From NCBI GenBank assembly GCA_021324655.1, contig JAJPIP010000059.1, positions 1-36,736 of the forward strand: a DNA stretch of 36,736 nt, given 5' to 3'. The stretch comes from Pseudomonadota bacterium (GTDB lineage Bacteria > Chloroflexota > UBA5177). The notes beneath the pieces were generated by a model. It worked only from the letters and a program-made list of their open reading frames with translations. It was not told the origin of the DNA and ran no database searches. The position numbers and the translations under genes were made by a program. Positions 8,956 through 26,518 of this stretch are shown piece by piece (position 1 is the stretch's first letter; every line of letters begins with the position of its first letter).

Positions 8956-9492
8956 CTACCGGGGATCCGCAAACCCGCTATAGGGATAGGCATCGGCATC
9001 CGTGACAAGGCCGGCCCGGACGGGATTGTCTCGGATGTACCGGGCGATCTCCCCGGCATCCTCGCTCCGACGAACGATGTGATCGTAGAAACGGGGCTGC
9101 CAGAGACGCCCTCGGATGCCGTGCTCCCAGCTTTGCCGGGTCGTGAGTCGCTTGAACGCTCCGATCAATCTGCCGAGGGGAGGCGAGTCCGGCGGGAGAC
9201 GCAGCAGGACATGGAGGTGATCCGGCATCACGCAGTGGGCCTGAATCTGGACCTGGCGCTCGGTACGGAGCCAGTGAAGGGAGGAGAGCACACTCTGGGC
9301 GATCTCCGGCCGCCGGAACGGCGCGGTGCCGTGGACCGCACGAATCGTGACGAAGTAGGCGTGGGAGGGATTGGCGTAATCAAAGCCGGCCAGACGTCTC
9401 TGCCGCCGGCGGGAGACAGTCTTGTCCACTTGGTGAGCATAGCAGGGACGCCGAGACGAACGACCGTGCATTGCGGAGACAGCCGGCAGCAT
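8956..9492 (-). CDS. REP-associated tyrosine transposase (RAYT, Y1 HUH family)
   Basis: 178 residues resembling the TnpA-REP family of IS200-like Y1 transposases, which nick and join single-stranded DNA at REP hairpins. Visible features are an N-terminal Arg-rich stretch before LAGFDYANPSHAYFVTIR, the metal-binding HUH motif in MPDHLHVLL, a basic FKRLTTRQSW helix, LWQPRFYDHIVRR, and YIRDNPVRAGLV, where the catalytic Tyr is expected. All key motifs are intact, so it may be active. The start is uncertain: ATG 9492 is the longest, and ATG 9471 is a good alternative. It sits alone, flanked by two direct REP-like repeats (8894-8923 and 9596-9625), as in a REPtron. Confidence 0.88.
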   Translation of the reverse strand: MLPAVSAMHGRSSRRPCYAHQVDKTVSRRRQRRLAGFDYANPSHAYFVTIRAVHGTAPFRRPEIAQSVLSSLHWLRTERQVQIQAHCVMPDHLHVLLRLPPDSPPLGRLIGAFKRLTTRQSWEHGIRGRLWQPRFYDHIVRRSEDAGEIARYIRDNPVRAGLVTDADAYPYSGFADPR

Positions 9493-23769: not shown

Positions 23770-23790
23770 GAGAGGTCGCCTTAAACACGA

Positions 23791-23828
23791 AAGGGGCGAG
23801 TGCTGATGCACCCGCCCCTTCGGTCTTT
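23791..23828 (+). terminator. Rho-independent terminator
   Basis: AAGGGGCG (23791-23798) pairs with CGCCCCTT (23813-23820), with an inner GTGC/GCAC stem, and CGGTCTTTT follows. It ends the small gene at 23566 and lies between it and the end of the convergent clpE-like gene. Confidence 0.85.
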
Positions 23829-23833
23829 TGCGG

Positions 23834-26026
23834 TTAGCTTGCCTGCTCGGTGACCGGTTCCGGCTCGGCCGGGGCGATCTCGATGGTGAGGGCGCCCTCG
23901 GCGAGCCGCAGGGCGACGGTTGCGCCGTTCTGGACGCTGCCGTTCAGGATGGCATCGGCCAGCGCATCGTCCACGTGCCGCTGGATGGCGCGCCGCAGCG
24001 GCCGGGCGCCAAACTCTTCGTCGTACCCTTCGGCCAGGAGGAAGTCACGCGCTTCGTCGCCGACAGTGAGCGTGATCTGCTGCTCGGTGAGGCGTTCCTG
24101 CACGTCGTCGAGGAGGAGATCCACGATGCGGCGGAGATCCTCGCGCTCCAGCGAGCGGAACACCACGACCTGGTCGATGCGGTTGAGGAACTCGGGACGG
24201 AAGGCCCGCTTGAGACCCTCCAGCGCCTTGTCCTTGATCGCATCCTGCCGGCCGTCGGCGCCCACCACGAACCCGATGCGGGCCGCGCGTTTCAGATCGA
24301 CGCTGCCGACGTTGGAGGTCATGATGACGAGCGTGTTCTTGAAGTCGATGGTGCGTCCCTGCCCGTCGGTGAGGCGGCCGTCGTCCATGATCTGGAGGAG
24401 GGCGTTGAACACCTCGGGGTGCGCCTTCTCGATCTCGTCGAACAGCACGACGGAGTACGGGCGGCGGCGGACTTGCTCGGTGAGCTGGCCACCCTCGCCA
24501 TACCCGACGTAGCCGGGCGGGCTACCGAAGAGCTTGGAGACGCTATGCGGCTCCATGTACTCCGACATGTCGAGACGGATCATGGCGTCGTCGTTACCGA
24601 AGATCTCGGCGGCCAGTGCCCGTGCCAGCTCGGTCTTGCCCACCCCGGTGGGCCCGAGGAATAGGAAGGAGCCGATGGGACGGCGCGGATCTTTGAGGCC
24701 GGCGCGCGAGCGCCGGATGGCGCGTGAGACGACGGTGATCGCCTCGTTCTGACCGATGACGCGGCGCGTCAGATCCTCCTCCAAATTCAGGAGATTCTCC
24801 CGCTCCGACTCGACCATCTCGGTCACCGGCACGCCGGTCCAGTCTTCGATGACGCGTGCCACCAGCTCGGGGCTCACGATCAGCGGCGCCGCTTCCGTCA
24901 GTGTCGCCCGGGCAGCTTCCAGCTCGCGCTGCAGCAGAAGCTCCTGCTGGCGGAGCTGGGCGGCACGCTCGTACTCTTCGGCCAGGGCGGCCTGCTCCTT
25001 CTGCTGCTGCAGCAGGTTCAATCGCTGCTCCAGGGCGGCAACGCCTTCCGGGCCCTCGCCGCTCTCACTGGCGTCGAGACGCAGCGCCGAGGCGGCTTCG
25101 TCGATGACGTCGATCGCCTTGTCGGGCAGGAAACGGTCGCTAATGTAGCGGTCGGAGAGGGTGACGGCGGCATCGATCGCCTCGTCGGTGACCTGGACGC
25201 CGTGATGACTCTCGTACTCCGGCCGGACGGCCAGGAGCATGGCCACCGCTTCCTCGGCGGTGGGCTCGTCCACGTAGATGGGGGCGAAGCGACGCTCGAG
25301 GGCGGCGTCACGCTCGATCTGGCGGTACTCGTCGAGGGTCGTGGCGCCGATGCAGCGCACTTCCCCGCGTGCCAGGGCCGGCTTCAGCATGTCGGCGGCG
25401 CCGACGGCACCCTCCGCGGCGCCGGCGCCGATGACCGTGTGCAGCTCGTCGATGAACAGCACGATGTCGGGGTTCTCACGGACCTCCTCGAGGACCTGCT
25501 TCACGCGCTCCTCGAACTGCCCGCGGAACATGGCGCCGGCCAGCATGCCGCCCATGCTGAGCGCGATGATGCGCTTACCCAGCAGGGCTGCCGGGACGTT
25601 GCCTTCCACGATGCGGCGGGCGATCCCTTCGACGATCGCCGTCTTGCCGACACCCGGCTCGCCGATCAGCACGGGATTGTTCTTCTGGCGGCGGGCGAGC
25701 ACGGTGATCACACGCCGGATCTCCCGCTCGCGTCCGGCCGTCGGATCGAGCTTGCCGTCCTCGGCCTCACCGGTCAGATCGCGTCCGAACTGGTCAAGAA
25801 CCGGCGTTTTGCTGCCGGACTGCCGCTCCGCGGTTACCGTGCCGGGGCCACCCGCGTTGTTGCCGAAGATGGAGCCGAGATTGGCACCGAGGTTGGCACC
25901 GCCGGCGTTACCCACGACCTCCTGCGCGCAGTTCTCGCACAGGTAGCGTGACTCGCGCTTGCCCGCGACGATCTGGTCGATGCGGACGCGCGCGTCATTG
26001 GTCTTGCATCTCTCACATTTGGGCAT
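23834..26026 (-). CDS. ClpE-like AAA+ unfoldase subunit
   Basis: 730 residues. The N-terminus is a C4 zinc finger (Cys 4, 7, 30, 33) in place of the double Clp-N domain of ClpA/B/C, which is the ClpE layout. The first AAA+ module has Walker A GEPGVGKT at 122-129 and a Walker B strand with FIDELHT. A middle UVR-like coiled segment follows ([21 protein letters not shown]). The second module has Walker [10 protein letters not shown] near 467, FDEIEKAH and a sensor-2 [11 protein letters not shown]. An IGF tripeptide after the second module indicates ClpP docking, so it should feed unfolded substrates to ClpP in the cytosol. Its start lies 27 nt after the TnpA-like gene, with AAAGGA 12 nt ahead, so both probably share the promoter at 26490. 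Confidence 0.93.
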
Positions 26027-26053: not shown

Positions 26054-26461
26054 CTACCGGTTGACCCTGGGCCGTCCGGCGCGGCGCCGCGGTGGCAGGC
26101 TGGTCTCGTAGACCTCCATAACCTGCTCCGGGCGGTAGTGCTCGCCTGCTCGCACGACATACGCCCGCGTCCACAGCGTCGGTATCTTGGTCATCTCCTG
26201 GAATTCATGACGCAGACAGCGGGAGGAATATGCCTTGAAGCGGCAAACGATGCGATGCGGGGATAACGTCGGCGGCGCGGCGACGGCGACGTAGACGCGG
26301 TCAGGCAGGATCTGGACCTCTCCGAGTTGGAGGGCCAGGGTCGCCGCCGTCTCGCGGATCAACGTCTCCAGCCGCTGCGCGGCATCCCCGATCAGGCAGG
26401 GCTTCGCCCGCATGGGACCCCACACGAAGTGGTACACGATCCGCTGCTCTTCAGAGTTCAC
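26054..26461 (-). CDS. TnpA-like (IS200/IS605 fold) protein without HUH histidines
   Basis: 135 residues from GTG 26461. The sequence follows the IS200/IS605 Y1 transposase pattern: YHFVWGP at the start, LETLIRETAATLALQLGEVQILPD, APPTLSPHRIVCRFKAYSSRCLRHEF, LWTRAYVVRAG, then EQVMEVYETSL with a possible Y1 Tyr. But the metal-binding segment, normally PDHxHLxV, reads PDRVYVAV, so both His ligands are replaced (Arg and Tyr). It should be unable to nick DNA. A basic tail (PPRRRAGRPRVNR) is added. It has a near-perfect promoter, no terminal palindromes are seen, and it lies directly upstream of the clpE-like gene, as for a domesticated DNA- or RNA-binding protein. Confidence 0.75.
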   Translation of the reverse strand: MNSEEQRIVYHFVWGPMRAKPCLIGDAAQRLETLIRETAATLALQLGEVQILPDRVYVAVAAPPTLSPHRIVCRFKAYSSRCLRHEFQEMTKIPTLWTRAYVVRAGEHYRPEQVMEVYETSLPPRRRAGRPRVNR

Positions 26462-26489
26462 TGTAGATATACCCTGCCTAACTACACGA

Positions 26490-26518
26490 ATTATAGCCGA
26501 GCGCGCGGTTTCTGTAAA
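26490..26518 (-). promoter_or_regulatory. Strong promoter TTTACA-N17-TATAAT
   Basis: On the minus strand TTTACA (26518-26513) and a perfect TATAAT (26495-26490) are 17 bases apart. Transcription should start near 26483, about 22 nt before the GTG of the TnpA-like gene, and probably continues into the clpE-like gene. Confidence 0.8.

Follow-up and report, generated by a model that had tools for sequence, protein, structure and literature searches.

A nuclease-dead TnpA-like protein encoded ahead of clpE as a candidate autorepressor of its own operon

What does a transposase-like protein without catalytic histidines do directly in front of a gene for a ClpE-type unfoldase? The question was raised by a 36,736-nucleotide stretch of DNA (the window), which forms contig C66 of a genome of 3.8 Mb; the closest named relatives of that genome are metagenome assemblies of Chloroflexota. 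A first-pass annotation, made from the letters alone, described an apparently domesticated TnpA-like protein leading a clpE operon and suggested that it might have become an autoregulator or an adaptor. Our preferred answer, to which we assign a probability of roughly 0.7, is that a nuclease-dead TnpA (here, dead TnpA) became, by exaptation, a local autorepressor of the operon that it shares with clpE; that it binds DNA and represses is inferred. The gene has the following features.

26054 to 26461, minus strand: gene for the HUH-dead TnpA-like protein (135 aa, GTG start; from Pfam, AF2, Foldseek, and tree)
26291 to 26305, minus strand: P-D-R-V-Y, the former HUH motif, with both His replaced (R, Y)
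26108 to 26110, minus strand: former catalytic tyrosine position, Tyr in the window (from alignments and sequences)
26069 to 26089, minus strand: basic tail RRRAGRP, AT-hook-like; most orthologues have RRPRGRPRK

Within the span first annotated, 26054 to 26518, a real open reading frame occupies 26054 to 26461, and the remaining 26462 to 26518 is promoter and candidate operator. The only Pfam family matching the 135-aa product is Y1_Tnp (E = 9.6e-18). An AlphaFold (AF2) model based on a 24-sequence alignment reached a pLDDT of 90.9, its strands and helices follow the order of those in TnpA, and its best Foldseek matches in the PDB were the TnpAs of IS608 and ISDra2 and other TnpAs, with a probability of 1.0. 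The IS200/IS605 TnpA pattern that had been annotated over the whole protein is upheld by both the family match and the fold comparison.

The catalytic residues fared differently. As had been read from the window, the two metal-binding histidines are Arg and Tyr at the HUH position, and both are gone in all 15 orthologues described below (RVY in 14, AVF in 1), whereas the ordinary TnpAs aligned with them keep an intact HUH. The catalytic tyrosine position is occupied by Tyr in 6 of the orthologues and by Phe in 9. Active TnpAs are marked by a Y---Q signature, the catalytic Tyr followed four residues on by Gln (PMC6006769); the window protein reads Y---L, and only the orthologues of G083 and G257 keep the signature. 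Fold and sequence are those of an active TnpA, but HUH, Y---Q, and mobility (several copies at varied sites) are lacking. Membership in TldR, nuclease-dead TnpB, was also considered and rejected: the protein is TnpA-type by Pfam, and a search for Rfam families in the window gave no match.

A second Y1_Tnp protein is encoded at 8956 to 9492 on the minus strand, with intact PDHLH and YIRDNP motifs, the latter being the Y---NP signature of TnpA-REP/RAYT proteins (PMC6006769). The only inverted repeat found around that gene is a short palindrome inside it. At about 130 to 1575 the window contains a CRISPR-like array of about 24 repeats (core CCGTCCCCACGCACGTGGGGGTGAACCG, 61-nt spacing), and the open reading frames listed there are products of these repeats.

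A profile search across 400 genomes of the phylum revealed a clear score gap, with 15 genomes at 189 to 278 bits and the rest at about 100 bits or less. A 16th case, G313, is truncated: its contig opens within the gene's tail, the only part visible, and clpE follows directly. The 15 HUH-less proteins form one monophyletic clade (support of 100/100), align without gaps over a 125-aa core, and show dN/dS values of 0.03 to 0.15 in 24 of the 25 closest orthologue pairs. The window genome has one copy of the gene; its five other Y1_Tnp genes encode different proteins, none a near-copy. A clpE-type gene lies directly downstream on the same strand in all 15 genomes and behind the G313 fragment, and none was found near the ordinary TnpA loci from the same search. 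The gap to clpE was measured at 27 nt in the window, as annotated; in some genomes it is as long as 173 nt, and a second promoter is not excluded in those. Since the 16 gene-bearing genomes are largely metagenome assembled and related, these counts are not independent.

This survey, which asked of each homologue whether the histidines and the clpE linkage were kept, supports domestication: a monophyletic clade without HUH, strong purifying selection, a single copy, and linkage in 15 of 15. Two outcomes that would have refuted it did not appear, namely, an orthologue with intact HUH at the same position in the 400 genomes or many identical copies in the genome. Fold, HUH loss, purifying selection, single copy, linkage, and tail can all be read from sequence, and on that basis we conclude that dead TnpA is an old gene under selection; recent transposase decay is ruled out by the clade-wide loss of histidines, the purifying selection, and the linkage to clpE. 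Viral spread was considered as well and rejected, because viral contigs hold only three distant relatives, all ordinary TnpAs. A weak, truncated match in G139, from the genus of G014, proved to be an ordinary HUH TnpA and not a member. One locus, L097 (JAJPKF010000023.1), is titled Proteobacteria; its contig matches G005, placed by the genome tool in the order of the window genome, and it is probably a mislabelled metagenome assembly.

The extra basic tail that had been noticed is present and can be described more specifically. A basic GRP tail follows the core in all 15 dead proteins and in the G313 fragment but in 0 of 48 intact TnpAs. AT-hooks have the form RGRP flanked by basic residues. 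The commonest tail is RRPRGRPRK; RRP/RKP-RGRP occurs in 12 of the 15 full-length members and RRSRGRP in 1, and the tails of the window (RRRAGRPRV) and G005 (RRRPGRPRK) have no Arg before GRP. The Pfam AT_hook model matched only marginally, in 5 of 13 members, with a best E value of 0.12. The tail looks AT-hook-like, and its binding to AT-rich duplex DNA is an inference.

Upstream of the gene, three elements were located.

26513 to 26518, minus strand: -35 box TTTACA
26490 to 26495, minus strand: -10 box TATAAT
26462 to 26486, minus strand: 25-bp inverted repeat TGTAGTT-N11-ATCTACA, the candidate operator, conserved in the clade

The promoter had been called nearly ideal, and indeed TTTACA-N17-TATAAT agrees with the consensus at 11 of 12 positions, and was found once against 0.4 expected in shuffles, with 28 nt between its end and the GTG start. 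Beyond this promoter and the inverted repeat, the aligned upstream regions of the clade have little in common. The clade consensus of the repeat is TGTAGNT-N11-ANCTACA, at a fixed 25 bp, a few nucleotides past the -10 box, and often flanked by AATT. Starting just past the -10 box, it extends over the expected start of transcription, a placement that suits a repressor. In most members from families f34 and f37 there are two copies, both preceded by a -10 box of their own, and the second spans the ATG; the repeat of G003 carries a single mismatch, and that of G014, the most divergent member, matches only poorly.

The repeat is almost confined to this locus. Its exact pattern occurs once in the window genome, and of 20 genomes searched for the strict form, 9 have a single match, which lies at the dead-TnpA gene in 8 of them and inside a coding region in G002. 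Combined with the -10 box, it has 13 matches in the 400 genomes, all at the dead-TnpA promoter, and the 11 genomes with this combined pattern all carry the gene. When one mismatch was allowed in a search of 10 genomes, including a complete one, every match again fell at the dead-TnpA locus. A genome-wide regulon was rejected, as neither the strict nor the relaxed search gave a second locus, the extra G002 match being inside a coding region.

Downstream, the following were found.

23834 to 26026, minus strand: clpE-type AAA+ gene, 730 aa (Pfam AAA_2, ClpB_D2-small, UVR)
23789 to 23821, minus strand: GC-rich hairpin after clpE, seen in the sequence

The clpE-type protein has an N-terminal CxxC...CxxC zinc finger, two AAA modules, and a UVR motif. 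The hairpin is a possible end of the two-gene operon; a terminator scan did not flag it, and its T run is short. The search for ClpE-type genes turned them up in families with dead TnpA (f1, f2, f11, f34, and f37) and also in f18, a related family of Chloroflexota that is without it. In f18, a CIRCE element, the operator of HrcA, lies upstream of clpE with at most three mismatches in 22 of 24 loci. At the eight gene-bearing clpE loci checked, the best CIRCE match was no closer than in shuffles, with 7 to 8 mismatches (4 in G014). The 4-mismatch site of G014 is perhaps an intermediate, although shuffles also reach 4. HrcA is present in 18 of 19 genomes tested, so the gene-bearing clpE is without an HrcA site despite HrcA being there, and CtsR (PF05848) was absent from all 22 genomes searched. 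Like the candidate operator and its restriction to this locus, the CIRCE element in f18 and the absence of CtsR are observations on genomes alone. The tree of ClpE proteins recovers the CIRCE-bearing sequences as one monophyletic group, nested among those that go with dead TnpA, and because its base is unresolved, the direction of the exchange between operator and CIRCE is not settled. Within f18, contig C13 of G026 carries a tandem pair of clpE-type genes (91180 to 96051; first copy in L041).

We propose that an IS200/IS605-type TnpA, having lost its nuclease residues and acquired an AT-hook-like tail, came to lead an operon of two genes, the second encoding a clpE-type unfoldase, with cotranscription inferred. 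A TnpA-like dimer most likely binds both arms of the 25-bp repeat downstream of the -10 box, in which case the core would contact TGTAG/CTACA and the AT-hooks the flanking AATT; DNA binding and dimerization are likewise inferred. The bound dimer would block RNA polymerase and repress both its own gene and clpE, and stress would relieve this repression; repression rather than activation is an inference, as is the inducing signal. TnpA family members are dimeric DNA-binding enzymes, and local repressors usually adjoin their own operator. Autorepression is proposed because the repeat stands beside the gene and over the start site, because the dimeric ancestry fits a two-fold repeat, and because AT-hooks would suit the AATT flanks; a single gene kept before clpE beside a conserved DNA switch is probably a gene regulator. 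There are no binding or expression data, and the operator could be another protein's. Of the two roles first suggested, that of autoregulator is favored over that of adaptor by the promoter-overlapping repeat found practically only here, the AT-hook-like tail, and the CIRCE element at the clpE that lacks the gene, but regulation itself has not been shown. With somewhat less assurance, we favor the broader view that these proteins may constitute a transcription factor family in which a nuclease-dead HUH/Y1 core and an AT-hook act on a duplex repeat and which has been exchanged with HrcA/CIRCE at a Clp unfoldase promoter.

Among the alternatives, the one that survives best, although we consider it unlikely, is a regulator acting on single strands or RNA, which would bind the repeat as a hairpin, formed either where the promoter is melted or at the mRNA 5' end, and block initiation or translation. 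The mRNA starts in or near the repeat, the start codon of f34 and f37 members lies within the second copy, and TnpAs recognize imperfect single-stranded DNA hairpins. As single strands, several of the repeats fold more stably than shuffles do (z of -2 to -8), so this mode is not excluded. However, the repeats of the window and G005 fold no better than shuffles (z of -0.5 and -0.6), the first f34 and f37 repeat is outside the coding region yet likewise behind a -10 box, and AT-hooks bind duplex AT-rich DNA. A slightly weaker case can be made that the operator belongs to another transcription factor and that dead TnpA is otherwise employed, for example as a partner or anti-repressor. No direct link joins dead TnpA to the operator, which leaves room for such a factor; even so, 11 of 11 genomes with the operator and -10 box carry the gene, and they contain no other operator site, as is typical of a local regulator beside its own gene.

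We regard as improbable that the protein, instead of being a regulator, assists the ClpE unfoldase as substrate adaptor or cofactor in the manner of McsA or MecA. The 15 of 15 linkage would be expected of such a partner, and the same-family genomes G001, G002, and G004 have neither dead TnpA nor a ClpE-type gene, but f18 genomes have an orthologous ClpE without dead TnpA, and both the operator and the basic, GRP-containing tail suggest DNA as the target. A functionless transposase fragment, decaying or still mobile, would account for the lost catalytic residues but is scarcely credible: the losses are shared, purifying selection is strong, the gene is single copy and keeps its place in several families, and viral contigs hold only distant, ordinary TnpAs.

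In the open literature searched (subscription papers were outside its scope), no HUH-dead TnpA regulator has been described. The TnpA-Y1 classification kept only sequences with HUH and Tyr motifs and deemed others probably nonfunctional (PMC6006769), and further dead-TnpA families may have been overlooked for that reason. Local autorepression by dead TnpA can be set beside several known systems. The TnpAs of IS200/IS605 elements (IS608, ISDra2) share its fold and sequence family, from which it differs in having no HUH, often Phe for Tyr, a GRP tail, a single copy, and a fixed place before clpE. TnpA-REP/RAYT proteins are likewise single-copy domesticated TnpA relatives; however, RAYTs retain HUH and Tyr and are associated with REP hairpins (PMC6006769), whereas the dead-TnpA clade has no HUH and, without NP, does not meet Y---NP. 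CtsR, a regulator encoded before a clp gene in Firmicutes, is alike in proposed job and place, but dead TnpA is an unrelated protein that matches only Y1_Tnp, and PF05848 is absent from these genomes; that dead TnpA serves as a functional analogue of CtsR for clpE is the best explanation, with its action inferred. CIRCE holds the equivalent position at the orthologous clpE of f18, but HrcA is encoded elsewhere, is an unrelated protein, and has a different operator; on the proposed reading, dead TnpA would play for its clpE the part that HrcA and CIRCE play in f18. The locus would offer a clear case of one stress-gene promoter with sites of unrelated regulators in different lineages. TldR, which originated from TnpB, represents the same kind of event, in which an IS200/IS605 nuclease loses catalysis and becomes a regulator. 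TldRs are nuclease-dead TnpB transcription factors (PMC13418256). They are RNA guided, whereas dead TnpA is a transposase derivative with an inverted-repeat candidate operator. Regulators exapted from TnpB are known already; for the transposase TnpA itself to have gone the same way, its catalytic histidines lost and a candidate operator at its promoter, would be new.
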